Assembly (NCBI RefSeq): GCF_018069865.1 | Contig: NZ_JAGQDG010000005.1 | Coordinates: forward strand, 1-64,000 | Direction: 5' to 3' | Origin: Ideonella paludis | GTDB taxonomy: Bacteria > Pseudomonadota > Gammaproteobacteria > Burkholderiales > Burkholderiaceae_C | DNA length: 64,000 nucleotides | Notes under the pieces: model-generated | What the model was told of the DNA's origin: nothing | Database searches by the model: none | What the model saw: the letters and a program-made list of their open reading frames with translations, nothing else | Position numbers and translations under genes: made by a program | Part shown: in pieces, positions 18 through 23,535 of the stretch | Numbering within the stretch: position 1 is the first letter of the stretch | Layout: every line of letters starts with the position of its first letter

Positions 18-3137
<3,120 letters not shown>

Positions 3138-7021: not shown

Positions 7022-7368
7022 TCGTCGTTCAGCAGATGCGCCATGTCAGGTGGCAGGGCCATCGGTTCGAACGGGCTGACGTCGGATGTGCCGATGTTGC
7101 CCAACGGCAGACGGCCGCTCAGGTGCCCGATGGGTGTGAGCACCAGGCGCAGAAGTTGCCCACGGAGTTCGCGGCCGTCTCGCAGTGCCCAGGCGGCACG
7201 CAGCATCAGCAGGTGCACGCGCAGGTGGGGGCCGATGTCCCGCTGACCAAGCACATGGGCGCGCTGCAGCGAACGCATCGCGGGCATCGGCTGCGCTGCA
7301 GCGAGGTGATGCCTGGCTTCGGCCATGGCGGCAACGAAGGCCATCGCGCCTTGAGAGCCGGGTGTCAT
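7012..7368 (-). CDS. DUF3703 domain protein
   Basis: A 118-residue soluble protein; family type is DUF3703, seen beside cation efflux pumps and MerR regulators. It is helical, with the pattern FVAAMAEARHHLA...ALQRAHVLGQRD and a conserved HVRVH/HLRVH-type segment. The start at 7368 overlaps the stop of the P-type ATPase gene as ATGA, so the two are translationally coupled, which supports a role in the same metal-detoxification operon. Molecular function is not known. Confidence 0.8.
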   Translation of the reverse strand: MTPGSQGAMAFVAAMAEARHHLAAAQPMPAMRSLQRAHVLGQRDIGPHLRVHLLMLRAAWALRDGRELRGQLLRLVLTPIGHLSGRLPLGNIGTSDVSPFEPMALPPDMAHLLNDDKL

Positions 7369-9641
7369 CGGCCTTGTACCCTGGCTTTCAGCAAACGCAG
7401 CCCGTTGACCACCACCAGCAGGCTGGCGCCCATGTCGGCGAACACCGCCATCCACATCGAGGCATTGCCGAACACCGCCAGCACCAGGAACACCGCCTTG
7501 ATGCCCAGTGCCAGCGCGATGTTCTGCCACAGGATGGCGTGTGTCGACCTCGACAGGCGCACCGTCTCGGCAATGCGCCGCAGGTCGTCGTTCATCACCA
7601 CCACGTCGGCGGCTTCCATCGCGGTGTCTGTGCCGGCCGCACCCATGGCCACCCCGATGTCCGACTGGGCCAGCGCTGGCGCATCGTTGATGCCGTCGCC
7701 GGTCATGGCCGTCATGCCGTGCTGCGCCTGCAGGGTCTTGATGGCGTCCAGCTTGTCCTGAGGCAGCAGGTTGCCCCGGGCTTCGGTGATGCCGGCCTCT
7801 TGCGCGATGGCCGTGGCCGTGGCCTGGTTGTCGCCGGTCAGCATCACCGATGTGATGCCCAGGGCCTGCAACTCGGCCACCGCTTCACGCGACGATGCCT
7901 TGATGGTGTCGGCCACCGCAAACAGGGCCACCGGGCCGGTATCGCAGGCCAGCAGACTGACGGTGCGGCCAGCCTCTTCGTGCGTGAGCAGCGCCGCCTC
8001 CAGCGCGGGCGAACACTGGCCGCGTTCCTCGATCAGGCGGTGGTTGCCCAGCACCCAGGTTTTTTCGGCGATCTCGGCCTGCACGCCGCGCCCGGTGATG
8101 GCCTTGAAGCCTTGGGCTTGAACGCTGTTGGGCTGTAGCCCGGCCGCGATTGCGCGCGACACCGGGTGGTCGGAGTGGCCGGCCAACACGGCGGCCATGT
8201 GTTCTGCGGTGGCGGAGTCAACGCCCGCGGCTCCGGCGGTGTCGAGCACCTGCCATGCCACCAGCTTGGGCTTGCCCTCGGTGACCGTGCCGGTCTTGTC
8301 CAGCGCGATGGCCTTGAGCTTGCGCGCCCCCTCCAGGTACACGCCGCCCTTGATCAGGATGCCGCGCCGGGCCGCGGCCGCCAGGCCGCTGACGATGGTC
8401 ACCGGCGTGGAAATCACCAGCGCGCAGGGGCAGGCGATAACCAGCAGCACTAGGGCCTTGTAGACACCCTGCATCCAGGTCCAGCCCAGCAACCATGGGC
8501 CAAGCAGTGCTACGGCCAGTGCGACGACAAAGACTGCCGGCGTGTAGACCGCCGCGAAGCGGTCCACAAAGCCCTGCGTGGGCGCGCGTGTTCCCTGGGC
8601 CTCTTCAACCGCGTGGATGATGCGTGCCAGGGTCGAATTCGAGGCCAGCGCCGTGACGCGGAACTCGAAGCTGCCGGTGTCGTTGATGGTGCCGGCAAAC
8701 ACCGGGTCGCCCACGGCCTTGTCCACCGGGATGCTCTCGCCGGTGACCGGGGCCTGGTTGATGCTGGTGCTGCCTGCCGTCAGGACGCCGTCCATGGGCA
8801 CCCGTTCACCCGGCCGCACGCGCAGCACCGCGTCCAGCGCCACGCTGGCGACTGGCACAGTCGCCCAGCTGCCATCGGCCTGGCGCACGGTGGCTTCTTC
8901 CGGCGCCATGGCCAGCAAGCCCTTGATGGCATTGCGAGCGCGGTCGACCGCGCGCGCTTCGATGGCCTCGGCGATGGCATACAAGGCCATCACCATCGCC
9001 GCCTCCGGCCATTGGCCGATGGCGAAGGCGCCGGTGACGGCCACGGTCATCAGGGCGTTGATGTTCAGGCGTCCGTGCTGCAGCGCAATCAAGCCCTTCT
9101 TGTAGACGTCAAAGCCCGCCAGCCAGATGGCGGCAGCGGCCACCGCCAGGCCGGCGCCTTTCCAGAGCAGCGTGTCTGGCGCGAAGTAGCCCACCAGCTC
9201 GGCAACGATGGCCAGAGCCAAGGCCATACCCAGCGTCCCGTAGCTGGCCTGCTGGACGCCATGGTCGAGCCCGTCCTCGGCGTCGGCATGTCCGGACGTT
9301 GTACCCGGCTGGGGCACTGCCAGCGGCTGAGGATCGAAGCCGGCCTTGCGCATGGCAGCCACGGCCAGGTCCACGGCCGGCCCAGGGGCATCCAGCGCCA
9401 AGGTGCGTTGCCCGAGCTGGAAGGTCAGCGCCCGGATCCCGGCAATGCCTTCAACCGCGCGGCGGATCTCGGACTCTTCAGACGCGCAGTCCATCGTCGG
9501 CACCCGAAAGCGCGCCAAGCCAGCGCCCTGCGATATCGCGGACGCTGCTGGCGCCGCAGGTGTGCTACAGCCGCAGCAAGGCGCGTGGCTCTCTGATGAG
9601 GGCAGTGTTTGTGCAGCAGTTTCTGGTCGATCCACGATCAT
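7365..9641 (-). CDS. cadA: Heavy-metal P1B-type ATPase (Cd/Zn/Pb exporter)
   Basis: A 758-residue ATP-driven exporter of soft divalent cations. An N-terminal cysteine cluster (CCGC, residues 22-25) precedes a degenerate HMA-like domain with MDCASEE (50-56) in which the second cysteine of the usual CxxC is absent; the MDC-x-x-EE form is known in ZntA/CadA/PbrA-like pumps. Further landmarks: actuator TGES (about 300-303), metal-site CPC (404-406), phosphorylation motif DKTGT (D448) and hinge TGDGINDAPAL. Divergent from a CadR-like MerR gene and preceded by a MerR-type promoter, so transcription should be metal-induced. Cd, Zn and Pb cannot be separated here. Confidence 0.93.
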   Translation of the reverse strand: MIVDRPETAAQTLPSSESHAPCCGCSTPAAPAASAISQGAGLARFRVPTMDCASEESEIRRAVEGIAGIRALTFQLGQRTLALDAPGPAVDLAVAAMRKAGFDPQPLAVPQPGTTSGHADAEDGLDHGVQQASYGTLGMALALAIVAELVGYFAPDTLLWKGAGLAVAAAAIWLAGFDVYKKGLIALQHGRLNINALMTVAVTGAFAIGQWPEAAMVMALYAIAEAIEARAVDRARNAIKGLLAMAPEEATVRQADGSWATVPVASVALDAVLRVRPGERVPMDGVLTAGSTSINQAPVTGESIPVDKAVGDPVFAGTINDTGSFEFRVTALASNSTLARIIHAVEEAQGTRAPTQGFVDRFAAVYTPAVFVVALAVALLGPWLLGWTWMQGVYKALVLLVIACPCALVISTPVTIVSGLAAAARRGILIKGGVYLEGARKLKAIALDKTGTVTEGKPKLVAWQVLDTAGAAGVDSATAEHMAAVLAGHSDHPVSRAIAAGLQPNSVQAQGFKAITGRGVQAEIAEKTWVLGNHRLIEERGQCSPALEAALLTHEEAGRTVSLLACDTGPVALFAVADTIKASSREAVAELQALGITSVMLTGDNQATATAIAQEAGITEARGNLLPQDKLDAIKTLQAQHGMTAMTGDGINDAPALAQSDIGVAMGAAGTDTAMEAADVVVMNDDLRRIAETVRLSRSTHAILWQNIALALGIKAVFLVLAVFGNASMWMAVFADMGASLLVVVNGLRLLKARVQGR

Positions 9642-9693: not shown

Positions 9694-9718
9694 GCCTTTG
9701 TTGGCAAGAGGGGACTGC

Positions 9719-10162
9719 ATGCGCATCGGAAACTTGGCTGAGGCGACGGGCACCCCGGTCGAAACCATCCGCTTCTACGAGCGCGAAGGCCTGATCCCCG
9801 CCGCGCAACGCAGCGAAAACAACTACCGGGTGTACACGGTCGCACATGCTGAGCGGCTGGCCTTCATCCGCCAGTGCCGCAATCTGGACATGGCGCTCGA
9901 TGAGATCCGTGCGCTGTTGCGTCTTCGGGACGCCGCGCCCGAAGACTGCGGCGAGGTCAACAAAATCTTGGATGCGCACATTGAGCATGTGGCCAAGCGC
10001 ATTCGCGAACTGCGATCGCTCGAATCGACCCTGAAGGCCCTGCGTGCGCGCTGCCAGTCACCACATGCGATGGAAGCGTGCGGCATCCTGAATCACCTGG
10101 ACAATGCCGCCTCGCAAGGCACCAGGACGGCCGGTCACCTCCACATCCGCGGTGCCCACTAG
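9719..10162 (+). CDS. cadR: MerR-family Cd/Pb/Zn-responsive regulator (CadR/PbrR-like)
   Basis: A 147-residue regulator: N-terminal MerR winged helix (MRIGNLAEATG...TIRFYEREGLI), a dimerisation helix (about 80-112), and cysteines C77, C112 and C121. The first two match the cysteines used for metal binding in CadR/PbrR; the third is close to the C119 of CadR. The start at 9719 follows GAGGGG; an in-frame upstream start at 9698 is possible but would add only MLARGDC. Divergent from the ATPase gene it should control. The C-terminus lacks the His-rich tail of Pseudomonas CadR. Confidence 0.9.
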   Translation: MRIGNLAEATGTPVETIRFYEREGLIPAAQRSENNYRVYTVAHAERLAFIRQCRNLDMALDEIRALLRLRDAAPEDCGEVNKILDAHIEHVAKRIRELRSLESTLKALRARCQSPHAMEACGILNHLDNAASQGTRTAGHLHIRGAH

Positions 10163-10961: not shown

Positions 10962-11231
10962 TCATGGGATGCGCAGCAACGGACCAGGGTAGATCTTGTA
11001 CGGATGGCTCAGCATAGGGCTGTTAGCCTCAAGAACATTGGGGTAGTCGCTGGCATTGCCGAAGTGCTCTTTGGCGATCTTGGATAGGTTGTCACCCTTG
11101 ACCACCGTGTACCAGCGCGACTCGTTGGCCGGTTGGGCAGCCGTAATCAAGTCCTTGACTCCAGTTACTCCTGTAACGTTGCCGCAGCACAGCACATTCT
11201 TCTCTCCGGTTGCTTGGTCTGGGCTGCTTGC
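10962..11231 (-). pseudogene. kbpA: 5'-truncated kbpA/ygaU (BON-LysM potassium-binding protein)
   Basis: The C-terminal about 90 codons encode the end of a BON domain (DQATGEKNVLCCGNV) followed by a full LysM domain (YTVVKGDNLSKIAKEHFG...KIYPGPLLRIP), the KbpA/YgaU arrangement. KbpA is normally about 150 residues, but upstream of about 11231 the frame continues with unrelated sequence lacking the BON N-terminus and a start with a ribosome site. Known role of the intact protein: cytoplasmic K+ binding. The truncation lies 0.5 kb inside the left repeat, consistent with insertion or deletion when the island formed. Confidence 0.75.
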
Positions 11232-11380
11232 CCGTTGACCGTGGTCTGGCTGAATCAAGCACTTAGAGGAAACCATGGCACAGAATCCGATATGGTTCGC
11301 TCTTTGGATTTGGAAAGTTCCTTCATGACACTCTTTGCACAGACGTAACGACCACACTTGTGCAGCTCGAGAAGCATCAC

Positions 11381-14356
11381 CTATACACCATTCAGACCGA
11401 ACGCCGCCCATACCCGTGGGTTGGCTAGCCTGGGGTTAGGACTACGCTGGAACTCGCGCTTAGTCGTGGCCAGAGCGGATACAGGAGGTCGCCCTTGACG
11501 AAGATGCGTCAAGAAGCGGGTCACGAACTGAGCTGTACTCGCATCCTGTATCTGCCAAAGTGTTTGCACCGTACTGCTCGCGCCTGCAACCATGGCGGCA
11601 TATGGCAAGCCCACTAAGCCCTCACTGCGACTGATTGCCCCACGACCGCTATGACATGAAGATAGGATCAGTACCCGGGCGTTCAAATGCAGTCCTAACA
11701 GGTCAGGGGCGTACAGTACACCGTCTTCAGTGTGGTCTGGACCATCGCGGCCCAACACGATCGCTGATAACTCCGGCCAACGAATATCGAACCAGCCATG
11801 TGTAGCCATCAAGACCACATCAAAGTCCTTCAGCTTACCTTGCCGAGACCATTCGCGCAGGCGGCGCTCAGAAGCCATACTTCCCAGCCATATCTCACTC
11901 TGTGAGCTACCGAAAACCTGGCTGGCGCGTTCAACTTCTATTCGGGAGTAAGGTAACCGCTGCAATTGTGAAGGACTTATGTCGACGCCTTGATCGCCGC
12001 GATCTCTGACCGACTTCACGAGGTAGCGTCTTTCACGTGTCGCGTCTGTGCCTGATGGCTCAGTGCGGTGACCGTAGTGCACATCCCCAAGTGCCAGCAG
12101 ACGGCTATTTCGATTAGCAAGATAGTCCTTCTGTCGGCGTTCCTGCAGACGTGTGGCGACACCAAGACTTGGAATCAATTGCACATCAGCTTGCTGAACA
12201 AGATGGCGCCCCCGCCACAACAATGCATCCCAAGGGATTGTCCACAGTTGACCGTCTGGGATGATGGCTAAAGACTGACCAGCCTTGAGACGCTGTCCAT
12301 GTAACGGACTCAGTAGGTAATGGCCCAGTTGACGAGCTAGTTCCTGATACGCAGCTTGACCTTGAACTTCTTTGCTTCCGGGTGGCAAACAGCTAAGCGA
12401 TGACTGGTTTGCCGCACGCGGATGACTGATCCAGTTACGAGTAGCTTGCCGTTGCAGATACTGTAGGTGCTGGGCCCACTCGGCAGTACTGCATCTCTCG
12501 CTTGCGCCACTCAGTAGCCAAAGCGACTCCCCATTGATCTTGGCCGAATAAACTTTCCTGGGTTGGCCATGCTCGTCGACCCACTGGCTCGACTCGGGAC
12601 CGCTTGCGGTCCATGCACGAAAGGCCTCTATGGTCCAAGACAAGTGGGGCGCAGAAGATAGACCTTTGCTAGATATCTGTCCGTCTGGAGTTCGCAGATA
12701 GGCTTGATACCGACCATCTGGCTGCTGTGCATAGATCAGACTTGTACTGCCTACTAGCTGTTTCCATTTCCCAGCTTCATCCACTAGCCCTTCCGCTTGA
12801 CGTAAGGTGCGGCCTAGGTCTGCCAACGCGCTTTCTAACTTCCGTCTCTCACCACGCCAGCCTTCCGACTGCGGAGAGTTGGCTTGCTTAGCGATGCGAG
12901 AATCGAGGATCGCTACTCGCTCTAATGTCTGGTTCCATGACTCGAGCATTTCTTTCGGCATCGCACGTGCCGTTAAGCCCTCTCGTAAGGCTAACCAGTC
13001 CAATAGGCCGTGAGCACGCCCCTGCTCTAGGGTGTCAAGGCTATCCTCAAACTGACCCAACTCGCGTTGCAGAAAACTGCGCAAGCCGTAAGCATCAGAA
13101 ACCAGCTCGGAGAACTTAACTTGCGAGGCTGGACCAGCCGCTGCTCCCATGACAAAGCGCTGGACTTCCAATTGTGGAATTAGGTCGCCCAAAGCTACAA
13201 GGGCATCTATTCTGCTTCCTCGAGCAGCAAGTGCACGTGCAAAGCCTAGTTGCGCCCACATGGTATCCATAGCGCTCTTTCCGCCTAAGCGCATCCATTC
13301 ACGAGTCAACTGCTCAAACAGATGGAGAGCTTCATCTGCCTGCCCATGGTGAAGATGTATGGTGGCGAGAAAAGACTTTGCCTTAAGCGAATAATGGCTA
13401 GAAGGTCCAAACTTTGACTCAATTGTCCACTGCAATCTCTTTACGTTAGCGATTGAATTTAACTCAAGGGATCCATTCCACCTCGAGAACTCCTGATTTA
13501 GTCGTGCACTCAGGGTGAGCTCGAACAAAGAACCGTGGCGGGCTTCCAAGATGTTGCCGGCCCGTCGAAAGGCTGATTCGGCAAGAGTGAATTGATCATC
13601 TTGAAACAACGCTTGCCCCAGTACATTCCAAGCCATACCGGTGTCGGGATGCTCCGCAGAAAGCGCCATCTCATGACGATTAACAACCTCTCTCGCTAGG
13701 GTCAAGCCTTCCGTAGTCTTGCCGCTTCGTATGAGCACCTGAGCAAGGTTTCTCTCTGCGGTCAAGCGTTGAAGGTGATTTTCCGCCAGTCTTGCCTTCG
13801 ATATGTCAGCTGCCAATTGAGCTAGCACGACTGAGTCCCCCAAATTACCTGCAAGACCCAAGCCTAGCGCCAAGTTTGTCGCGACTAGGACGCTCAATTC
13901 TGGTTCTAGCGACTGGTGATTCCGGAAAATCAGGTCACGAAGCTGCTTCAGCTCGACAAGTGCTTCGTCATAACGTTGCAAATACAGATACGAGACGGCC
14001 AAATTTTGTTTGGCCATGAGTGTATTTGAGTGATGTGGGCCATCCTGAATGATCCTCAAGGCAACTAAATGAGCCTTCTGGTGAAGAGCTTCTTCGTGCC
14101 GCCCCAGTTCACTCAGAGCCATCGCTTTCAGATTTAGCAACTCTAGTTGCAGCTCGTTAGCGGGGTCAGCTGCGTTGTCACCTAGTAGTGCCTCGGCGCG
14201 GGATAGAGCTTGGGCAAATAGTCCATCATCGTGTAGGCGGTTGACTTCAGCGACCATTGCCTCTGTGACCGTTGCTCTAGCTATCGCTCCGTTGCTACCA
14301 AACAATGTGATACAAGCTATGCACAGAAGGGATAGGGTCCTCTTTCCCACCGTCAT
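11381..14356 (-). CDS. Exported TPR-CHAT caspase-like protease
   Basis: A 991-residue protein: probable signal peptide (MTVGKRTLSLLCIACITLFG...AIARA), then a long array of tetratricopeptide-like helices (about 35-480, e.g. NLAVSYLYLQRYDEALVELKQL-type units), and a C-terminal CHAT domain (about 650-991). The CHAT dyad is present: H853 in ATHGW and C901 in SSCHSG. CHAT is a separase/caspase-clan peptidase fold usually activated through the TPR part. Its start overlaps the preceding gene by 4 bp (ATGA), making it the last gene of an operon with an ECF sigma and a C14 caspase. Base composition is clearly less GC-rich than the flanks. Substrate unknown; the upstream membrane protein is a candidate. 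Confidence 0.88.
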   Translation of the reverse strand: MTVGKRTLSLLCIACITLFGSNGAIARATVTEAMVAEVNRLHDDGLFAQALSRAEALLGDNAADPANELQLELLNLKAMALSELGRHEEALHQKAHLVALRIIQDGPHHSNTLMAKQNLAVSYLYLQRYDEALVELKQLRDLIFRNHQSLEPELSVLVATNLALGLGLAGNLGDSVVLAQLAADISKARLAENHLQRLTAERNLAQVLIRSGKTTEGLTLAREVVNRHEMALSAEHPDTGMAWNVLGQALFQDDQFTLAESAFRRAGNILEARHGSLFELTLSARLNQEFSRWNGSLELNSIANVKRLQWTIESKFGPSSHYSLKAKSFLATIHLHHGQADEALHLFEQLTREWMRLGGKSAMDTMWAQLGFARALAARGSRIDALVALGDLIPQLEVQRFVMGAAAGPASQVKFSELVSDAYGLRSFLQRELGQFEDSLDTLEQGRAHGLLDWLALREGLTARAMPKEMLESWNQTLERVAILDSRIAKQANSPQSEGWRGERRKLESALADLGRTLRQAEGLVDEAGKWKQLVGSTSLIYAQQPDGRYQAYLRTPDGQISSKGLSSAPHLSWTIEAFRAWTASGPESSQWVDEHGQPRKVYSAKINGESLWLLSGASERCSTAEWAQHLQYLQRQATRNWISHPRAANQSSLSCLPPGSKEVQGQAAYQELARQLGHYLLSPLHGQRLKAGQSLAIIPDGQLWTIPWDALLWRGRHLVQQADVQLIPSLGVATRLQERRQKDYLANRNSRLLALGDVHYGHRTEPSGTDATRERRYLVKSVRDRGDQGVDISPSQLQRLPYSRIEVERASQVFGSSQSEIWLGSMASERRLREWSRQGKLKDFDVVLMATHGWFDIRWPELSAIVLGRDGPDHTEDGVLYAPDLLGLHLNARVLILSSCHSGRGAISRSEGLVGLPYAAMVAGASSTVQTLWQIQDASTAQFVTRFLTHLRQGRPPVSALATTKREFQRSPNPRLANPRVWAAFGLNGV

Positions 14357-14973
14357 GGCGGTCCCGCATCTATCTGTATATCGGCTTCACCTTGACCGTC
14401 TAAAGACAGTTCCATGGCAGCCAGGGTTGCAGATACCGCATCTAGGTGCTCGGCAGACACCTTCACTCTCAGATGCACCTTTCCTCCAACTTCCGACAGA
14501 CTAACCTCCGCGCCGCTGCTGCGTAGCTTCGCCGTTAACTCCTTGGCAGCCATTGCTGGTTCGACATGACGTAATCGTTGAGTCATAGCCTTGCCCGGCA
14601 TGCTACCGCCACCACGTGGAGTCAATTCTTGCCCGTGCTGCCAAGCTGGCAAGGCGAAAGCAATGGCCACCACGGCAGCAGGCGCCAAATAGCGCCCCCA
14701 TCGCCACCAAGCATCATTGGCTGCAGGCCTAGCCCCGCTTACATTGGTGCTAGTTCCGACACTGGCCCGTTGACGTGTATCGTGCTCCGCTTTCAACTCA
14801 GCCCAAGAACGTGGCGTTGCCTTTGCGGCCGAGTTTGCATGGGCATCTGCACGCAACTGCTCTCGCCAGAGCCTACCCAGTTCGCCCGCCGGTCCGCGAG
14901 CAGGTCCGCCACGCAAACCCTCGTACCAGGCGGATTCATCTTCGGCAGAAGTGGGGGACGGGTCAGCAGTCAT
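14353..14973 (-). CDS. Single-span membrane protein, candidate anti-sigma factor
   Basis: A 206-residue protein: a cytoplasmic-type N-terminus (1-92; acidic start, then LGRLWREQLRADAHA and SWAELKAEHD), one hydrophobic span (about 95-112, YLAPAAVVAIAFALPAW), and a periplasmic-type C-terminal alpha/beta domain (about 135-206). It overlaps the ECF sigma gene by 11 bp and the TPR-CHAT gene by 4 bp. Topology and position immediately after the sigma gene fit an anti-sigma factor, but the HxxxCxxC zinc motif is absent and I see no recognised anti-sigma domain, so this role is inferred from context. Confidence 0.7.
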   Translation of the reverse strand: MTADPSPTSAEDESAWYEGLRGGPARGPAGELGRLWREQLRADAHANSAAKATPRSWAELKAEHDTRQRASVGTSTNVSGARPAANDAWWRWGRYLAPAAVVAIAFALPAWQHGQELTPRGGGSMPGKAMTQRLRHVEPAMAAKELTAKLRSSGAEVSLSEVGGKVHLRVKVSAEHLDAVSATLAAMELSLDGQGEADIQIDAGPP

Positions 14974-15526
14974 TGCATTCCTTCAACATCATGTCTTTCA
15001 GTAGCTTGTAGGCCTTTACTATCCGTGACTTGACGGTGCTTAGTGGCAGCCCGAGCTTCATCGCTACTTCAGCCTGGGTCATGTCCTCATAGACTGCCCA
15101 GTGCAGGGGTTCTGCCAAATCTGGGTGGCAGCGTGAGAACTCAGCGTAAATCCGCAGAAAGCACTCCCTGTGCTGCTGGTCGGTTAGACGGTCTTCCTGT
15201 GGATTGGTCAATGTCCTGTCAAACTGCTCAGGTAAGTCGTGCGATGCGCCGATGGTGACCAGCGTCACCCGATGTTTGCGAAAATACTCTAAACGCAGGC
15301 TCAATATGACGGACCAAACCCACGTGAATAACTGGGCCTGATTCCTACCCTCGAACTGCCATAGCTTGTCCCAAGCGTGGCAAAGACCGTCATCAAGTAG
15401 CTGCTGTTTAACGTCATCGGGCAACGGGTCGCGCTTGAATATGGCCCGGAAGCGCTCATAACTCTCGGCATACATCTGCTCGAAATCTTTAGCCCAGGGT
15501 GAAACTAAGCTAGGGTGTTCAGACAC
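14963..15526 (-). CDS. ECF-type RNA polymerase sigma factor
   Basis: A 187-residue sigma-70 family protein. The sigma2 region is about residues 15-90 (DGLCHAWDKLWQFEGRN...FTWVWSVILSLRLEYFRKHR, equivalent to region 2.1-2.4). The sigma4 region is about 120-180 with a helix-turn-helix in MTQAEVAMKLGLPLSTVKSRI. There is no sigma1.1 or sigma3, as in ECF factors. The start is GTG at 15526 with AAGGAG 8 nt upstream on this strand; it overlaps the end of the caspase gene by 8 bp. A matching ECF promoter candidate (16752-16776) precedes the divergent subtilase gene. Confidence 0.9.
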   Translation of the reverse strand: MSEHPSLVSPWAKDFEQMYAESYERFRAIFKRDPLPDDVKQQLLDDGLCHAWDKLWQFEGRNQAQLFTWVWSVILSLRLEYFRKHRVTLVTIGASHDLPEQFDRTLTNPQEDRLTDQQHRECFLRIYAEFSRCHPDLAEPLHWAVYEDMTQAEVAMKLGLPLSTVKSRIVKAYKLLKDMMLKECNDC

Positions 15527-16547
15527 TGGGGGCTCCTTGTCTTGCGGACAGCCAGCGCATTCGATCGTCGCCTACGACTACAGGCCAGGGGCCATGCCGT
15601 TGAACAATACTAGGATGTTGCCGCAAGGCAGTGGATAACGTAGATGCCGAGTCAAATGCTTCGGCCCGAATCAAGGAAGACAAAGTATGGGTGAGTAGGC
15701 CAAAAGTGCGAAGACGGCCGTCTTGCGGATCGGGTAGCTGGCATTCAACCGCGCTCGACTGGGCCATTGCTGCACAAGCGAAAACCCGCCTCTGTAGAGG
15801 CAGCGGGGGCGGCCAGATGCCTTTGCTAGCACGGCCGGATGAGGCCTCGAGTTCCACCCCTTTGCTGCGTTGCGCTTCTCGCCAAGTTGGTAGAGGCACA
15901 CCTAAATCGGCGGCGGTGACGGCACGATGTATGTCGCCAGCTTTGAGTAATGCTGAGCTCTCCCGCATCAGGCCAGCGGCGTGGCAGCAGTCGAGAAAGA
16001 CCCAGCAGTACACCCCTTTCGCCGCCAACAGGTCTAGCCATGCTGAAAGTGATGTGTCTGTAAGGGCATTGGGCAAATAGCCCGTCGTCGCATTTCCTCG
16101 CCAAGGCAGCACATCTGAAAGCAGCATGACCTCATCCAGTCCATCCGACTCCGTGAGAGCTCTGTGCTGCGAGGCGGGTGTCTGGGCTCCGTGCCCAGAA
16201 AAATGAAAGAGCACTCGGTCTCCCCGACGCGCGCTAGTCAATACCCGTGACATTGCTTTCTGAACAGCGGCATAGCTCGGTGCACTCTCGCCAGGGGCCG
16301 TGCTCAATGCTTGGATCTCCGTTTCGAGAAGTCCGGCTGCTAGCAGGCTTTGGCGCAAGAGGCTTACATCGCGGGCGGGCCCGTCAAGCCATAGGGAAGG
16401 AGTGAGTGCGGCAACTGTGCCGACACCAATCAACAGCGCGTGCGTGCGTGTGGGTGACAGCGTAGCCCGAGAGGGGCTCAACGTCGCACTTAGCCCCAGC
16501 CCCAACCCAAATCCCAACACGCTCCTACGACGGCGGTCCAATCTCAT
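15519..16547 (-). CDS. Exported caspase-like protease (peptidase C14)
   Basis: A 342-residue protein. The N-terminus RRRRSVLGFGLGLGL looks like a Tat-type or Sec signal. The C14 domain follows (about 33-330) with the catalytic dyad visible: H119 in HFSGHG and C188 in LDCCHAAG. Start chosen at 16547 because GAGGAG lies 8 nt upstream; a much longer frame continues upstream without coding character. First gene of the operon with ECF sigma, membrane protein and TPR-CHAT. Bacterial caspase homologues (orthocaspase/metacaspase type) are proteases with Arg/Lys or acidic specificity and are used in signalling or cell death; here the operon partner suggests control of a sigma factor. Confidence 0.88.
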   Translation of the reverse strand: MRLDRRRRSVLGFGLGLGLSATLSPSRATLSPTRTHALLIGVGTVAALTPSLWLDGPARDVSLLRQSLLAAGLLETEIQALSTAPGESAPSYAAVQKAMSRVLTSARRGDRVLFHFSGHGAQTPASQHRALTESDGLDEVMLLSDVLPWRGNATTGYLPNALTDTSLSAWLDLLAAKGVYCWVFLDCCHAAGLMRESSALLKAGDIHRAVTAADLGVPLPTWREAQRSKGVELEASSGRASKGIWPPPLPLQRRVFACAAMAQSSAVECQLPDPQDGRLRTFGLLTHTLSSLIRAEAFDSASTLSTALRQHPSIVQRHGPWPVVVGDDRMRWLSARQGAPSV

Positions 16548-16751
16548 AGGTGATCTCCTCGATGACATGCAGCGGTGAGAGCACTGATGCATAGCCACCT
16601 TACACATCTTTTTTGCCTTCATGATAGGCCATTGCGGTGAACCTAAGTTGCAAAGTCGATGTGCGTAGCAGGTTGATTGCGGCAAGCACATGCCAGCCTT
16701 CACTACGCACCAAAGGATATAGGCCCTGAATGCAACCTGAATGTGATCTTT
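16548..16751. other. Divergent intergenic region, caspase side
   Basis: This part of the divergent control region upstream of the caspase operon is AT-richer than the genes. I looked on the minus strand for a copy of the GGAAC-N16-CGTC motif and did not find one; a weak GCAACTT element is present without a good -10 partner. No gene is supported. Confidence 0.4.
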
Positions 16752-16776
16752 GGAACGGGTTGCCGCGCCCCTCGTC
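16752..16776 (+). promoter_or_regulatory. Candidate ECF sigma promoter of the subtilase gene
   Basis: GGAAC (16752-16756), exactly 16 bp spacer, CGTC (16773-16776): the general -35/-10 pattern of ECF sigma promoters. It points toward the subtilase gene, 128 bp before its GTG start, and lies in the region shared with the divergent operon that encodes an ECF sigma. Confidence 0.5.
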
Positions 16777-16903
16777 GTGAGAGGCTCCAAGGACATGTCC
16801 CTGGAAAATAGTCGGAAATTAAGTGACCAAAGACAGTCGATCCCGTCTAACAACACACAAGGATCTGTGCGTTCGTGCCTTCCCTGGAATAGGAGGACTT
16901 TCC

Positions 16904-19900
16904 GTGACTTCAAAGATTGCCGCAATTTCAATCATTTGCTCAGCATGCTGTTTAGCTCTTGCAGCTTGCGGCGGAGGTGAAGACCAGAGGTCCGAAGGGA
17001 CGAACATGGCAGAGCGTCCTCGCGCAATGTCTGTTCGTCCAGAGGGTAAAGCTGCCGAGCCAACCCACAAGGAGGTCATTGTTCTACTTCGCGACGGAAT
17101 TCCGTCAAGCTCGCCACAGTTGTTGAACCAAGTGTTGGCAGAGGGGCGGACTGCCGGCTATTCACTTCGGTACGTCGCAGACGTAGCCGTGGGTGGGTGG
17201 GTTATTGACTTAGGGAAGGCTGCCAAGCTTGCGGATGTTGAAGCGCTCTCAAGACACTTAGCCTCAAAGATTTTTTCAGTGGTCGTTGTTGAGCCAAATC
17301 ATTTGGTGTTCCCAACAGCGATTCCGAACGATCCAATGCTGGTTGATCAATGGTCATTCGGTGCCGCTTCGTCAGGTGGCACAAATGTCCTCGCCGGCTG
17401 GGATTCCGCAACAGGCGCAGACGCCGTGGTGGCCGTTCTGGATACGGGGTCGATAGTGCACGAGGAGTTTGCCGGACGTGAGGAACCGGGATACGACTTT
17501 GTCAGCAGCCTTGTCAGCGCAAATGACAAATCCGGGCGAGACGCAGACCCAGCGGACCCTGGAGATTGGACGGATGCAACTACATGTGCCACAAAGGGAG
17601 AGAGCTCCAGTACTTGGCATGGCGCACGCGTTGCGAGCACGATTGGGGCTGCTGCGAACAACGCAGCAGGTGTTGCTGGTATCGCGTACAACAGTCGCGT
17701 AATGCATGCGCGCGTTCTAGGACGGTGCGGGGGCTCGGCGTCCGATGTGGCTGATGCCATCGTGTGGGCCGCCGGGGTCACGGGCGGAACTGTGCCCGCT
17801 CCTGCACGGCCGGCCCGTGTTCTAAACCTATCTTTCGGCCTTGCGTTGGCAAATGGGTGTTCTGCTGTGTATCAGCGAGCAGTCGACTCGGCTCTTAAGG
17901 CAGGTGTTTTGGTGGTAGCTGGTGCTGGGAATGATAATTCCAACGTTGCCTTCTTTTCGCCCGGCAGCTGCAATGGGGTGATGTCTGTCGCAGCGCTCGG
18001 GCGGGCTGGCAATCGCGCTAGTTACTCTAACTTTGGAGCGCGAGTTGATGTCTCAGCACCTGTAGGCGATCACAGAGATAGCCTAAGAATCACTGCAGCA
18101 ACGAACCTGGGGGCATCATCCCCTCAGGCACCAGGTTACATGCAAGAGTTCTTTGGAACCTCTGCAGCTACTCCACACGTTTCTGGAGTCGCTGCACTCA
18201 TGCTTGAAGCAAACCCCGCCTTGCTTCCGCATGAACTTGGAAGGCTTCTACGGAATTCTGCGAGTCCTTTCATTAGTGCATGCGACAACTGCGGATCAGG
18301 GGTCGTTGACGGGCTGGCGGCGGTACAGGCTGCCCGCGCTATTGAATCAGAGACTCAAGAAGGAGAGTCCAATGGAGGCAAGAAGAACGACAGCAAGTCT
18401 TCTGCCCAGGTTTTGACCGCTATCCCTTCTCGTGTGAAGGGAAGTTTGCAATCAGCGACCGACATTGACTTCTACAGAGTAGATGTGCCCGCGGGACAGA
18501 AGGTCCGTGTCGTTGTGGCGAGTCTTCTTCCCGTCGATATGGATGTTGCTGTTTCAGGAGGTAAGTTTACTCAGCTTGCAGTTAGGGGTGCTTCCGGAAT
18601 GGTCGACTATGTCGATCTGACTAACAGTACTACATCAACTCAAGTTGCCAATCTGCGTGTCTCGCAAGTTGGAGCAACCACTGCAGGTTACCCGCTGAGT
18701 TATGCGCTCCGTGCCATTGACGTGCCAGCGCCTGCTCGTAGCCCTGTAGTTACAAATTTCATCGTGAGTCAAGCTTCGGCAGGGCAACCTGTACAAGGCA
18801 GCTTCAACGTTAATGATGCGGACGGCGTTTCGCTGAAAACATTGCGAGTGCATGTCGGTACTAATGGTGCAGCCGGTTCCGATGACTGCTACTTGAATAT
18901 TGATCCTCAACTCGGAACTAAGCAGTTCCAGTTCAACGGCAGTGGGATCTCTGAAGGTGCGGGTTGTGCTCAATTGCTGCCTTCTCCCGGTCAAACTAAG
19001 AGGCTGTACTTTTGGATTGAAGCAGTTGATCACGACCAGTTCATTGCCAAACCGTCATACAGCAGTGTTGATTACCTTGGCGGTGCACAAACGCAGGTCC
19101 CTTTGATAACGGCGTTCAGTGTCAATCAAGCAACTGCAGGTTCGCCTATGAACGGAAGCTTCAATGTTGCCGACGCAGATAGCAACAGCTTGAGGACACT
19201 ACGCGTTCATGTTGGTGATCAAGGCTCCGCTGGAACATACGGATGCTTCCTCGACCTCGATACAGCCTTGGGTCTCAAGAGCTTTAGCTTCAGCGGCAGT
19301 GGAACCTCGCAGAACGGTCAGACCTGTGCAGGATTGATTCCACTGTCTGGGCAAAGCAAGACGCTTTGGTTCAAGGTGGAGGCTGTAGATCCAGACAACA
19401 ACAAAGCTCTGATAGGCGTATCTGGAAACCCGGTTTCCGGTGTGTACAGGGCCGGTGGAGATTTGAAGCCGACGATCACGGGGCTGACAGCAGCGACACC
19501 CATCACGACTGGTGGTGCGTTGAGTGGCAGTTTCACGATCACCGACCCCAATGGTGATCAAGTGACCAAGCTGCGGGTTCACGCAAGCTACAGCTATGAC
19601 GGCTCTAGCTGCACGATGGACATTGGCACCTACAGCAGTAGTCAGCCAGGAGGTCTGAAGTCTTTCAGCGGTTGTTCGTCGTACACCACGACACCAGGAA
19701 CCGTGTACCTCAAGGTCGAAGGGTGGGATGTCAATGGCCTGCAAGCCGATGTCGTGAGAACGACAGTGCAGGTCAATAGTGCTACCTACAGCAGTAGTCA
19801 GCCAGGAGGTCTGAAGTCATTCAGCGGTTGCTCGTCGTACACCACGACACCAGGAACCGTGTACCTCAAGGTCGAAGGGTGGGACGTGAATGGCCTGCAA

Positions 19901-20215
19901 GCGGACATCGTAAGAACGACGGTACAGGTCAATGCGACCATGGGTACGGTTTCCGGACGTACACCAGACACACTGACCAGGAATGTTTCTACAAGGGTAA
20001 CCGTGACTGGAAGCGGCTTCCCCGCAACGGCTGTATTCGCAATTGATAACGTCGTGTGCAACTCTGACTATCAGCGCACTGGCACCACGTCCATATCACA
20101 GACCTGTATAGCACAGCCCGGTACACCGTCCACGACGTACCTGAGAGTCAAGGACGGACCTGGAGGAAGCTATCTCTCAAATGGCAACGGCAGCTTTGCA
20201 TTCTCTGTGCGCTGA
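16904..20215 (+). CDS. Subtilisin-like (S8) lipoprotein protease with PPC and repeat domains
   Basis: A 1103-residue protein. GTG start chosen: AGGAGG lies 7 nt upstream and it puts a lipoprotein signal at the N-terminus (lipobox L19-A-A-C22 followed by GGG). A propeptide-like region (55-135) precedes the S8 catalytic domain (about 140-480) with D180 (AVLDTG), H239 (WHGARVAS), oxyanion N343 (GAGNDN) and S420 (GTSAATPHVSG). A pre-peptidase C-terminal (PPC) beta domain is about 495-605. Then come Ig/cadherin-like repeats sharing the pattern GSFNV-x-DAD...LRVHVG (about 615 and 730, with a diverged one from about 845), and a tandem 52-residue duplication (909-1012). Expected on the outer membrane or periplasmic face. 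The catalytic set is complete. Base composition is lower GC than the host core. Probable target of the neighbouring ECF sigma. Confidence 0.9.
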   Translation: MTSKIAAISIICSACCLALAACGGGEDQRSEGTNMAERPRAMSVRPEGKAAEPTHKEVIVLLRDGIPSSSPQLLNQVLAEGRTAGYSLRYVADVAVGGWVIDLGKAAKLADVEALSRHLASKIFSVVVVEPNHLVFPTAIPNDPMLVDQWSFGAASSGGTNVLAGWDSATGADAVVAVLDTGSIVHEEFAGREEPGYDFVSSLVSANDKSGRDADPADPGDWTDATTCATKGESSSTWHGARVASTIGAAANNAAGVAGIAYNSRVMHARVLGRCGGSASDVADAIVWAAGVTGGTVPAPARPARVLNLSFGLALANGCSAVYQRAVDSALKAGVLVVAGAGNDNSNVAFFSPGSCNGVMSVAALGRAGNRASYSNFGARVDVSAPVGDHRDSLRITAATNLGASSPQAPGYMQEFFGTSAATPHVSGVAALMLEANPALLPHELGRLLRNSASPFISACDNCGSGVVDGLAAVQAARAIESETQEGESNGGKKNDSKSSAQVLTAIPSRVKGSLQSATDIDFYRVDVPAGQKVRVVVASLLPVDMDVAVSGGKFTQLAVRGASGMVDYVDLTNSTTSTQVANLRVSQVGATTAGYPLSYALRAIDVPAPARSPVVTNFIVSQASAGQPVQGSFNVNDADGVSLKTLRVHVGTNGAAGSDDCYLNIDPQLGTKQFQFNGSGISEGAGCAQLLPSPGQTKRLYFWIEAVDHDQFIAKPSYSSVDYLGGAQTQVPLITAFSVNQATAGSPMNGSFNVADADSNSLRTLRVHVGDQGSAGTYGCFLDLDTALGLKSFSFSGSGTSQNGQTCAGLIPLSGQSKTLWFKVEAVDPDNNKALIGVSGNPVSGVYRAGGDLKPTITGLTAATPITTGGALSGSFTITDPNGDQVTKLRVHASYSYDGSSCTMDIGTYSSSQPGGLKSFSGCSSYTTTPGTVYLKVEGWDVNGLQADVVRTTVQVNSATYSSSQPGGLKSFSGCSSYTTTPGTVYLKVEGWDVNGLQADIVRTTVQVNATMGTVSGRTPDTLTRNVSTRVTVTGSGFPATAVFAIDNVVCNSDYQRTGTTSISQTCIAQPGTPSTTYLRVKDGPGGSYLSNGNGSFAFSVR
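19628..19939 (+). repeat. In-frame 156-bp tandem duplication in the subtilase gene
   Basis: Two adjacent 156-bp copies (19628-19783 and 19784-19939) encode nearly the same 52 residues (TYSSSQPGGLKSFSGCSS...). They differ at roughly a dozen positions, mostly third codon positions, so the duplication is not very recent or has been kept by selection on the protein. Confidence 0.9.
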
Positions 20216-20369: not shown

Positions 20370-20948
20370 ATGGGTCTCTATGCTTCGACTTCTTTGCTGC
20401 TATTTAATACTCGTGAAAAATTGCTCTTGCCTTTTATCAGAGATAGCCGCAAAGCTCGGTCCGCGATGGTGGAAAAATGGCACCTAGGCATGCTGACAGT
20501 CCTTCTCCTGCTTGGATCTAGTGCTTCCGCCGCACCACTATCCGAGTCCATTTCTATCGTTCCATTTAATATGTATGGTCCGGCGGGAACAATTCAGCTA
20601 ATCCCTTTTTATAATTCAGCAAGTACATTGCAAATTAAAGCCCCGGCGAGTGGTCGATATATTCTTTCCTTTTCAGCCGAGTGTACTGTTTCCGGCTCCC
20701 TTGGAAGTATTGATAATTGGATGGATGTGGACATTATTGTAAACACATTCGTGGTTCCCCCTACTTCTGGAAATTTCGACAAATTCTGCTCTACGGATGG
20801 ATCCGGAGGTGCTACTGGTACAAATAGAGTATCTATCATTATTCCGATTAGTCTTGAAAAGGGGAGGAATTCATTGCAAATTCAAGCGAGAATCAATTAT
20901 GGGGAATCGAGCGTCAGGCTGTCGAATATGGTGGTGTTGGTGTTTTAG
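20370..20948 (+). CDS. AT-rich secreted protein of unknown function
   Basis: A 192-residue protein not recognised. A signal-like segment HLGMLTVLLLLGSSASAAP ends near residue 55, which leaves an unusually long charged N-terminus if translation starts at 20370 (AAGGA 9 nt upstream). Met33 at 20466 would give a standard signal peptide but has no clear ribosome site. The mature part is beta-rich with two cysteines and GRYILSFSAECTVSG, like small beta-sandwich adhesin or matrix proteins. Codon use is strikingly AT-rich compared with the chromosome, a sign of transfer. It lies 155 bp after the subtilase gene. Confidence 0.6.
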   Translation: MGLYASTSLLLFNTREKLLLPFIRDSRKARSAMVEKWHLGMLTVLLLLGSSASAAPLSESISIVPFNMYGPAGTIQLIPFYNSASTLQIKAPASGRYILSFSAECTVSGSLGSIDNWMDVDIIVNTFVVPPTSGNFDKFCSTDGSGGATGTNRVSIIIPISLEKGRNSLQIQARINYGESSVRLSNMVVLVF

Positions 20949-21620
20949 ATGGTTGGAAAAACTGATCATTCGACACTTACTGACGCAGCGTAGGGAGTGA
21001 TTTGGGTTAGATCCTAGCCCAATAAATCAATGGCGGAGGGCCTGCATTAAAGGCGTGCAATTCAATAAGAGTCGACCAAGCGATTAACTTTGGGGCTACA
21101 TATCTACAATGTCATTGATCACACTGCTATGCCTTCAACTCGAACTCAAGCAACTCCAGGGTCAGATTAGTAGGCAAGAGCAAAAGCCGATGTGAATATA
21201 AGTGGCGAACCTCGGTTGGCTGGGGGTGTGCGCTAAGTAAAATGAATACAAGTCAATAACTCAAGAAATGGAAAAATGACAAATTTTTAAAGCAAGCCAC
21301 TGATATCATCTAATGTTCATCCGGGCTAATATTTTGGTTGGTTGTCGTTTGAAATATAGTATTGTATGGGCGTTGCCTGAACTAGCTAGCCATTCCCGTG
21401 ATCTAACTCGGCGTAAAGTTGGAAAAATCGACCTTTGGATGAGATAAATTTCAATTTCTGCAAGGTGTTGTAGATCTCTTGCCACAAATAATCGCATAAA
21501 TAAAACAGTAATTGAAGAATCGACCGGTTAGGCAAAGTGTGTTTGCCGACATATTTGCGCTCAATAGGGTGCAAATATATTTATGCTGAAAAGAAAAACC
21601 AACTTTTTAAAGGAGAGCGT
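20949..21620. other. AT-rich intergenic stretch
   Basis: About 670 bp without a credible gene. Short minus-strand frames (21306-21497, 21386-21574) have no ribosome sites and no recognisable features. The composition is the most AT-rich of the window and matches the two flanking secreted-protein genes, so the block was probably acquired together. Confidence 0.5.
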
Positions 21621-22127
21621 ATGTTCTTTCGCACGCAGGTAAAAATCATCGCCGCTGTATCTTTGTTGGCTAGCGCATCCACCCAGGCCGCACCGCCCGC
21701 CCCATCTAAGTCGGTCTCATTTGGATACGTTTCGCCGTTTACTGGGCCACTAAAATTGCTAAAAACACATCTTGAACACTATAACGAACAAGGCTTAGCT
21801 GTCGGGCCTGATGCTTGGTACGGAAGTCCTCTGACTGTGTCCTGCCCCAACGCTGCAGGCTGCTATGTTGTTGTCAGTGCAAATGCTCAGGTTTACAGCT
21901 TTTCATCACCCCGGCCTGTCGCTTTAGGCATTCAGATCGGCAGCTATTATTCGGCCCCTTATAATATCAAAGCGAATCAAGATGATTTCACATTGCTAAG
22001 CTATAAAGTGGGAACTATGGTTCCAAAAGGAGATCATAAGATAATGACTAGGTATATTGGCGCAGCAGGGACGCCAGCATCGCTGTTTGAATATACCACA
22101 GAGGTAAGTGTGTATAAGCCAATTTAG
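21621..22127 (+). CDS. AT-rich secreted protein of unknown function
   Basis: A 168-residue protein with a standard signal peptide (FFRTQVKIIAAVSLLASASTQA-AP). Start fixed by AAAGGAGAG upstream of 21621; the longer frame to 21537 is unlikely. The mature part is beta-rich with one cysteine pair (VSCPNAAGC) and ends EYTTEVSVYKPI. It resembles the product of 20370-20948 in size class, signal and composition, but I cannot show homology by eye. No family recognised. Two stem-loops follow the stop codon. Confidence 0.65.
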   Translation: MFFRTQVKIIAAVSLLASASTQAAPPAPSKSVSFGYVSPFTGPLKLLKTHLEHYNEQGLAVGPDAWYGSPLTVSCPNAAGCYVVVSANAQVYSFSSPRPVALGIQIGSYYSAPYNIKANQDDFTLLSYKVGTMVPKGDHKIMTRYIGAAGTPASLFEYTTEVSVYKPI

Positions 22128-22448: not shown

Positions 22449-22823
22449 ATGAAGAAATCGCGATTCACAGACAGCCAGATCATCGAAGCCCTCAAACGCG
22501 TGGAGGCGGGTTTGGCCGTCCCGGAGCTGTGCCGAGAACTGGGCATCAGCACGGCCACCTTCTACAAGTGGCGGAGCAAGTTCGGCGGCATGGACACGTC
22601 GCTGATGACGCGCATGAAGGAGCTGGAGGAGGAGAACCGTCGGCTGCGCAAGATGTACGTTGAAGAGAAGCTCAAGGCCGAAGTGGTCACGGAGGCGCTC
22701 GCAAAAAGTGGTGAAGCCATCTCGCCGCCGCGAGATGGCTCATTGGGCAGTTCAAGACAAAGGGTTGGCCATTCGTGCTGCCTGCCAAGCCTTCGATATC
22801 AGCCAGGCCTGCTATCGGTATGA
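22449..22823 (+). pseudogene. IS3 transposase orfA, reading frame altered
   Basis: The first about 86 codons are a normal orfA: helix-turn-helix KKSRFTDSQIIEALK...CRELGISTATFYKWRSKFGG and a leucine-zipper-like [25 protein letters not shown]. At 22703-22707 only five A residues precede G, where related elements have the slippery A-AAA-AAG and orfA stops shortly after at TGG-TGA. The missing base sends orfA into 37 extra codons and leaves orfB in the +1 rather than the -1 frame, so normal -1 frameshifting cannot make the fusion transposase. Confidence 0.75.
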
Positions 22824-23535
22824 GGCCAAGCGCAAGTCCGAGGATGACGAGATTGCGGACTGGCTGCTGCGCCTGACGGACAACCATCGCAACTGGGGCT
22901 TTGGTCTGTGCTTTCTGTACCTGCGAAATGTCAAAGGCTTTGCCTGGAACCACAAGCGTGTGTACCGCATCTACAGGGAGCTGGAGTTGAACCTGCGCAT
23001 CAAACCCCGCAAGCGCCTGGTGCGTGAGAAGCCTCAGCCACTGTCAGTGCCCGAGGCCATCAACCAAGTCTGGTCCATGGACTTCATGCACGACCAGCTT
23101 GAGGACGGGCGAAGCTTTCGGCTGTTCAACGTGATCGATGACTTCAACCGCGAAGCCTTGGGCATTGAGATTGCCTTCTCACTACCCTCGCTGAGAGTGA
23201 TCCGCGCCCTGACGCAGATCATTAGCTGCCGAGGAAAGCCCCAGACCATTCGTTGCGACAATGGCCCGGAGTACCTGAGCGCAGCCATTGAAAGCTGGGC
23301 CAAAGCGTGGGGCATCCAGGTCGAGCGGATCGAGCCTGGCAAGCCGCAGCACAATGCCTACGTCGAGCGGTTCAACCGAACCGTGCGCTACGAATGGCTG
23401 TCGGAGTACCATTGGAGCGACCTTGAAGAGGTCAGGCTCCACGCCACAAAGTGGATGTGGCAGTGCAACCATGAACGCCCAAGCATGGCCTTGGGTGGCA
23501 TCACCCCCAAGCAGCGGTTGGCCATGGCCGCATAG
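22660..23535 (+). CDS. IS3 transposase orfB (DDE integrase domain)
   Basis: About 280 codons carry HTH_21-like and rve domains: [28 protein letters not shown] and the E of [14 protein letters not shown] make up the DDE triad. From the motif [11 protein letters not shown] onward it matches orfB of IS3 elements. The first about 15 codons from 22660 overlap orfA in another frame and are probably not translated. The catalytic part is intact, but expression depends on the damaged frameshift site upstream. Confidence 0.85.

Follow-up and report, generated by a model that had tools for sequence, protein, structure and literature searches.

The first 64,000 nucleotides of contig NZ_JAGQDG010000005.1 of Ideonella paludis (NCBI RefSeq assembly GCF_018069865.1; hereafter the window) carry on the (-) strand four overlapping genes that are a member of a recurrent module, to which we assign a role in envelope signalling by inference. 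These are genes for a caspase-family (C14) protease (15519-16547, 342 amino acids), a sigma factor of extracytoplasmic function (ECF)-like type (14963-15526, 187 amino acids), a membrane protein that is probably its anti-sigma factor (14353-14973, 206 amino acids) and a protease with tetratricopeptide repeats and a CHAT domain (TPR-CHAT; 11381-14356, 991 amino acids). An S8 subtilase lipoprotein is encoded divergently on the (+) strand (open frame 16823-20215). An earlier reading of this DNA, the original prediction, had proposed that an extracytoplasmic caspase or CHAT protease cuts the anti-sigma protein and thereby frees the sigma factor to express the subtilase. All five frames are indeed open at these positions, and the four (-) genes overlap by 8, 11 and 4 bp, as had been described. 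The unit is real and recurrent, and it varies known sigma/metacaspase and protease/anti-sigma arrangements.

Conserved co-occurrence in other genomes, which the original prediction proposed to look for, was found for the sigma factor, the membrane protein and the caspase, and in a subset of loci for TPR-CHAT, and was not found for the subtilase. The window caspase was matched in 6 other genomes among 369 genomes of the class. In G372, G224 and G285 an ECF sigma gene and a membrane protein gene of anti-sigma layout are clustered with the matched caspase; in G285 the pair lies ~4.4 kb from it, with a second caspase-containing gene between. Two of the other caspase matches (L035 and L036) gave no match to the sigma profile and the third (L037, genome G182) lay outside the profile scan. 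Inspection by eye of the L036 cluster (genome G338) revealed caspases together with OmpA-like, membrane and sigma-like proteins. A first sigma profile, built from the sigma factors of the window, G372, G224 and G285 and run on 398 genomes of the phylum, ranked highest the window, G372 and the newly found G528 and G717, after which the score drops from 130.6 to 98.7 bits. Sigma factor, membrane protein, caspase and TPR-CHAT are all present in G528 and G717, and in G528 all four share one strand.

A second sigma profile (A5), made from six sequences including that of the window, was applied to 250 genomes of the family to which the window belongs. It retrieved 22 loci with scores of at least 105 bits (L074-L095, among them the window). 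A caspase lies within 1.5 kb in 17 of them, compared with none of the eight next-lower family loci fetched (L096-L103) and none of 26 lower loci from the phylum search (L043-L068). The training set of the sigma profile includes loci found via their caspase, a choice that enriches this sigma subfamily for linkage. The excess nevertheless stands when the family loci used for training (window, G717 and G372) are left aside, with 14 of 19 caspase-linked against none of the 33 lower loci that remain when the one place common to both lower sets is counted once (Fisher p ~7e-9, with related loci not being independent). The caspase profile was itself partly built from the same loci and could miss divergent caspases near lower-scoring sigma factors. 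Flanks were seen for at most 30 loci per search, one per genome, and several better-ranked matches came without flanks. Linkage of the sigma factor, membrane protein and caspase, in part with TPR-CHAT, thus exceeds chance by its recurrence. The original prediction would have been undermined by sigma homologues mostly devoid of the membrane protein or proteases; within the 22 best-scoring family loci we find the opposite. This outcome applies to these loci; to our knowledge, most ECF sigma factors at large lack such a membrane protein and such proteases.

The linked caspase is encoded on the strand of the sigma gene in 17 of 17 loci. In 16 of these it lies downstream of the sigma and membrane protein genes, the latter being placed between sigma factor and caspase; in the window the caspase is upstream. 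Longer stretches were examined for 17 sigma loci, namely 14 of the 22 family loci as well as L069, L032 and L033, and seven of them (window, L034, L070, L104, L108, L069 and L032) carry TPR-CHAT in the cluster. Six of these proteins pass the Pfam cut-off, and that of L032, which is cut by the contig end, was found by our own profile only. The same scan detected neither caspase nor CHAT at the lower-scoring sigma loci L071-L073. At L108 the sigma and membrane protein genes run opposite to those of TPR-CHAT and caspase; that the gene set is kept while its order changes argues for functional linkage. Single-sequence searches found no close copy of the window locus.

The window sigma factor is divergent in sequence; it has a region 4 (Sigma70_r4 PF04545, 34.1 bits, cut-off 24.1; PF08281, 27.7 bits, cut-off 25.7) and aligns with its relatives along its length. 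Over residues 15-179 it stays slightly below the cut-off of the general NCBIfam ECF model TIGR02937 (42.8 bits, cut-off 42.9), and Pfam region 2 gave no match. In the sigma tree, with L088 taken as linked and without L082 and L091, the caspase-linked rows require 4 label changes compared with 17.3 in shuffles, which indicates that caspase-linked sigma factors are clustered, yet do not form one clade. A single-sequence search with the window sigma factor in 149 relatives yielded, beyond itself, six matches in five genomes, with no other module part detected by phmmer in their neighbourhoods; likewise, a search of genome contigs gave four Bacteroidales loci with a sigma factor and, by phmmer, no other window-type part.

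The adjoining membrane protein is probably an anti-sigma factor, as its layout and its position next to the sigma gene suggest. Best-window hydropathy places one hydrophobic stretch at about residues 92-112, with ~90 residues before and ~95 after it. A protein with such a stretch follows the sigma factor in 20 of the 22 family loci, the exceptions being L082, which is cut by the contig end, and L090; among the 20 loci with the pair, 17 have the two genes overlapping, by 4, 8 or 11 bp. The zf-HC2 domain is usual in anti-sigma factors. It was detected at E<=0.01 in 6 of 23 aligned membrane proteins, that of the window not being among them, and exceeds the Pfam cut-off in one relative, L070. A single-sequence structure model of the window protein places three helices at its N-terminus and an alpha-beta-beta-alpha-beta domain at its C-terminus, and is only suggestive; due to its mean predicted local distance difference test score (pLDDT) of 61 and the lack of a match at E<=0.001 in a fold search of the PDB, we did not use the fold as evidence. 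A PDB profile search with the aligned membrane proteins peaked at E 0.13, and a single-sequence search with the window protein returned short weak matches only.

The caspase matches Peptidase_C14 (PF00656) with 39.8 bits (cut-off 21.4) and is metacaspase-like; a PDB search with a six-sequence profile gave metacaspases as the best solved-structure matches. His119 and Cys188, which we take to be the catalytic pair, are invariant in 6 of 6 aligned sequences. Its closest relative found is the caspase of L108, with 47% identity over 177 columns and tree support of 98/91. TPR-CHAT scores 187.6 bits with CHAT (PF12770, cut-off 24) and 74.7 bits with TPR_12 (cut-off 30.1), and its His853 and Cys901 are invariant in 4 of 4 aligned sequences. 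The His/Cys dyads attributed to both proteases by the original prediction are hence retained. No other CHAT match was found in the window genome, and a single-sequence search with TPR-CHAT in 369 class genomes gave no further match at E<=1e-30 (with at most 2 candidates scored per genome). A PDB profile search of the CHAT proteins matched TPR proteins only and no CHAT protease. A further pair of caspase genes lies side by side on the same contig (G000:C18:339358-341939; L115 and L116), and no listed sigma-profile match of this genome falls there.

The signal-like N-termini that had been ascribed to both proteases were also seen by us, and on the caspases and CHAT proteins of relatives that were inspected; these signals and the start codons were judged by eye, and second caspase copies (as in L094 and L033) were left out. 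The window caspase starts with a Tat-like (twin-arginine translocation) sequence, MRLDRRRRSVLGFGLGLGLSATL, and all 17 caspases within 1.5 kb of a sigma factor display RR and a hydrophobic stretch at the N-terminus. Five more caspases have a hydrophobic N-terminus without RR (L108 and L107 of the window's family, L069, L032 and L033). The N-terminus of the window TPR-CHAT, MTVGKRTLSLLCIACITLFGSNGAIARA, is signal-like as well, and that of all six complete TPR-CHAT proteins is hydrophobic (the starts in L070, L104 and L108 were picked by hand). On this reading by eye, caspase and TPR-CHAT would be exported, and both would then face the outer part of the anti-sigma factor.

On the basis of this gene set we tentatively favour a mechanism in which the exported caspase, alone or via TPR-CHAT, clips the anti-sigma factor and frees the sigma factor. 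The membrane-bound anti-sigma factor would hold the ECF-type sigma factor, while the exported caspase and, in the window's subtype, an exported TPR-CHAT would be co-produced with them. Clipping of the outer domain of the anti-sigma factor by the caspase, either unaided or triggered by TPR-CHAT as scaffold or sensor, might be followed by the usual intramembrane and cytoplasmic proteolysis, and the released sigma factor may then transcribe its own operon and local targets. Cleavage of the anti-sigma factor by caspase or CHAT is plausible, and a caspase relative may help to control a gene switch from outside the cell membrane. The circuit of the original prediction is partly supported, by the recurrent sigma/membrane-protein/caspase linkage (in a subset with TPR-CHAT), the export-like N-termini and zf-HC2 in a relative, and it loses the subtilase as a member.

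Several observations weigh against this interpretation. At five of the 22 family loci (L082, L088, L090, L091 and L092) the 1.5-kb flanks of the sigma gene lack a caspase. At L082 the contig ends at the locus; at L088 (L108 in the longer reading; genome G913) TPR-CHAT and a caspase lie on the divergent side, the caspase at least 2.6 kb away; at L091 (L107) the caspase is at least 3.7 kb away on the opposite strand; and at L090 and L092 none was found in 18-19 kb. Ten of the 17 loci examined at greater length (L033, L105-L107 and L109-L114) yielded no TPR-CHAT. The window membrane protein is weakly hydrophobic, with a best 19-residue Kyte-Doolittle mean of 1.35, which is among the weakest of the family loci (1.23-2.46). 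It has no Pfam or NCBIfam match at E<=0.1, including any anti-sigma family, and shares 14-30% identity with 22 counterparts beside the sigma factors of relatives, that of L108 being the closest at 30%; at L090 the neighbour of the sigma factor is not a membrane protein. The window sigma factor forms a very long tree branch of unsure place, drawn beside caspase-free rows. Finally, linkage alone fits the proteases as output of the sigma factor nearly as well, and does not tell activator from output.

In this last scenario, which we rate as a serious possibility of somewhat lower probability, the anti-sigma factor would sense envelope stress through its outer domain and be cut by DegS/RseP-type proteases, and the sigma factor would raise caspase and TPR-CHAT as envelope proteases or as effectors of self-killing or antagonism. 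The position of the linked caspases on the sigma strand, in all cases except the window downstream, is that often taken by targets; OmpA-like and other envelope genes stand beside several units (by eye), and OmpA in 14 of the metacaspase operons described in PMC3501461 fits an envelope-effector operon. However, an exported protease kept with one sigma/anti-sigma subfamily over many genera also fits a dedicated regulator. It is improbable, in our view, that the membrane protein is not an anti-sigma factor or that the five genes are mere neighbours in an acquired island. The missing family match of the membrane protein, the G+C content of the locus of 0.53-0.57 against mostly 0.60-0.69 in its surroundings, and the insertion sequence (IS)-like genes at 22449-23535 would agree with such an arrangement, whereas the gene set recurs in separate families and with altered gene order, the genes overlap and relatives have zf-HC2, all of which argues against it.

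We likewise give little credence to a role of the divergent subtilase as the site-1 protease that activates the sigma factor, or as its main output. A model of this kind has been put forward for the sigma group ECF54, whose context holds carboxypeptidase, subtilase and CHAT genes (PMC8999054). The divergent position of the subtilase in the window is in line with this notion, as is L071:4354-6811, outside the window's class, where a lower-scoring sigma factor is accompanied by a convergent anti-sigma-like frame and an S8 lipoprotein (PF00082, 66 bits), and no caspase was found. Such subtilases are, however, common: the lipoprotein/catalytic part has matches in 119 of 250 family genomes, and in the 1.5-kb flanks of 29 other homologues fetched (one per genome) neither a sigma factor nor a caspase occurs, so that of the 30 loci fetched the window's own is alone in having either. 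In addition, phmmer with the window subtilase found none in the other 21 loci scanned with the module profiles, in a scan insensitive enough to have missed the S8 protein of L071. The subtilase is consequently not supported as a standing part of the module, and its expression by the sigma factor, as suggested by the original prediction, is not supported here.

Apart from this assignment, the subtilase gene is largely as had been described: the S8 domain (Peptidase_S8 PF00082, 152.9 bits, cut-off 21.8), the lipobox and the divergent orientation are all present. Its start has been moved, most likely to GTG 16904 instead of the frame start at 16823, because the sequence AGGAGG (16891-16896) precedes this codon and a clean lipoprotein signal with the lipobox LALAAC follows. 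The candidate ECF promoter (GGAAC-N16-CGTC, 16752-16776, (+) strand), ~125 bp upstream of GTG 16904, is weak, as the pattern is not above chance for the window (2 sites compared with 1.28 expected in shuffles). A search for a shared promoter motif in the upstream regions of the window, L034, L070, L104, L108, L069 and L032 recovered the ECF pattern from the window and, in looser form, from L032, and from none of the others; a GGTTCA/CTATNAT likeness noticed by eye among these regions was discarded for its inconsistent spacing. At L034, L070 and L104 a lipoprotein gene is likewise divergent from the sigma operon, so that a divergent lipoprotein is possible as a local sigma target. Between L034 and L070 these lipoproteins show a weak similarity (E 7e-8 in one direction and 6e-5 in the other), and those of all three loci bear no resemblance to the window subtilase, which would be a plausible local target outside the standing module. 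The subtilase gene also contains a near-perfect in-frame tandem duplication of 156 nucleotides (19628-19933; 141 of 156 bases alike).

Other genes were noted beside the relatives' units. A CHASE2 protein and, by eye, a cyclase-like frame lie upstream of the four-gene module at L069:10946-13864, and a CHASE2-like frame (by eye) adjoins the sigma/anti-sigma pair of L033. By eye, OmpA-like genes precede the sigma/anti-sigma/caspase unit in L078, L080, L082 and L084, with adhesin-head-like genes in L080 and L082.

The window module lies in a stretch at 10-24 kb with a G+C content of 0.45-0.57, compared with mostly 0.60-0.69 elsewhere in the window (a further dip occurs at 34-36 kb); due to this low G+C content the stretch was probably acquired. 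The frames at 22449-23535, on the edge of the low-G+C region, resemble by eye an IS3-type transposase pair. Genes of heavy-metal type (by eye), namely an efflux pump, a P-type ATPase and a MerR-like regulator (18-3137, 7365-9641 and 9698-10162), adjoin the region. A LysM frame (10962-11411) that matches only positions 60-146 of 149 of NF008399 (113 bits, cut-off 134) is probably a truncated remnant. Two small secreted-looking proteins (20370-20948 and 21537-22127), in or beside the lowest-G+C stretch, have no Pfam or NCBIfam match at E<=0.1. Defence labels assigned by PADLOC at the locus (caspase, subtilase and BovA) were treated as generic domain matches.

In the DegS/RseP-RseA-RpoE pathway a membrane anti-sigma factor receives its first cut outside the cytoplasm, and DegS is a PDZ serine protease. 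The window unit would likewise have a membrane anti-sigma factor that is first cut from outside; its first protease, however, would be of caspase fold. The pair DegS/RseA is named as a protease/anti-sigma precedent in the work on the type III-E CRISPR system (PMC10028731), where Csx29 cuts Csx30, an inhibitor of CASP-sigma; according to the published model, this cleavage relieves the inhibition. Both loci combine a TPR-CHAT protease, a sigma factor and a sigma inhibitor, presumed in the window. In contrast to Csx29, which is bound to the RNA-guided Cas7-11 (PMC10028731), the window proteases look exported, and the presumed inhibitor would span the membrane. Membership in type III-E was rejected for the window sigma factor, which scores 42.1 bits with the CASP-sigma model NF041236 (cut-off 100). 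In agreement with the original prediction, which had noted no CRISPR parts, neither Cas7-11 nor another Cas effector was matched among the 8 window proteins scanned, and the two direct repeat families in 9.6-24 kb are not CRISPR-like. A more far-reaching version of the favoured mechanism, which we regard as rather doubtful, is that the site-1 cut in a membrane anti-sigma factor is made by a metacaspase exported in folded form (Tat-type), and that an exported TPR-CHAT serves as its sensor or trigger; the unit would then be a non-CRISPR extracytoplasmic counterpart of Csx29-Csx30-CASP-sigma and a possible source of such circuits.

Predicted operons that join metacaspase and sigma-70 genes were described for Myxococcus, other Deltaproteobacteria, Ralstonia and Fibrobacter (Asplund-Samuelsson 2012, PMC3501461). 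The window unit has this junction in common with them; the term 'anti-sigma' is absent from the main text of that study, whose passages on these operons name neither an anti-sigma membrane protein nor a TPR-CHAT partner or a mechanism, and signal peptides are raised for metacaspases in general only. For ECF54, with a Geodermatophilus example, proteolytic control without an anti-sigma factor was proposed (PMC8999054). The CHAT and subtilase genes near the sigma factor are shared, as compared by description; a probable anti-sigma factor and a C14 caspase, which is not named in the ECF54 description, distinguish the window. A term search of a study of ECF sigma factors and class I anti-sigma factors (PMC7406223) found none of the words caspase, CHAT and subtilase. 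Among the matches listed in our literature searches we recognized no unit of sigma factor, anti-sigma factor and exported caspase, also with TPR-CHAT; ECF classification work may note one.

The function of most bacterial metacaspases is unclear, and the recurring sigma/anti-sigma/exported-caspase unit offers a direct hypothesis, namely that a caspase-fold protease controls gene expression across the membrane. If the proteases are exported as their N-termini suggest, they would face the outer part of the anti-sigma factor; Csx29, by contrast, acts together with an RNA-guided complex. If the hypothesis is true, the CRISPR-linked Csx29/Csx30 circuit would be joined by a broader group of protease-sigma circuits that are not linked to CRISPR.

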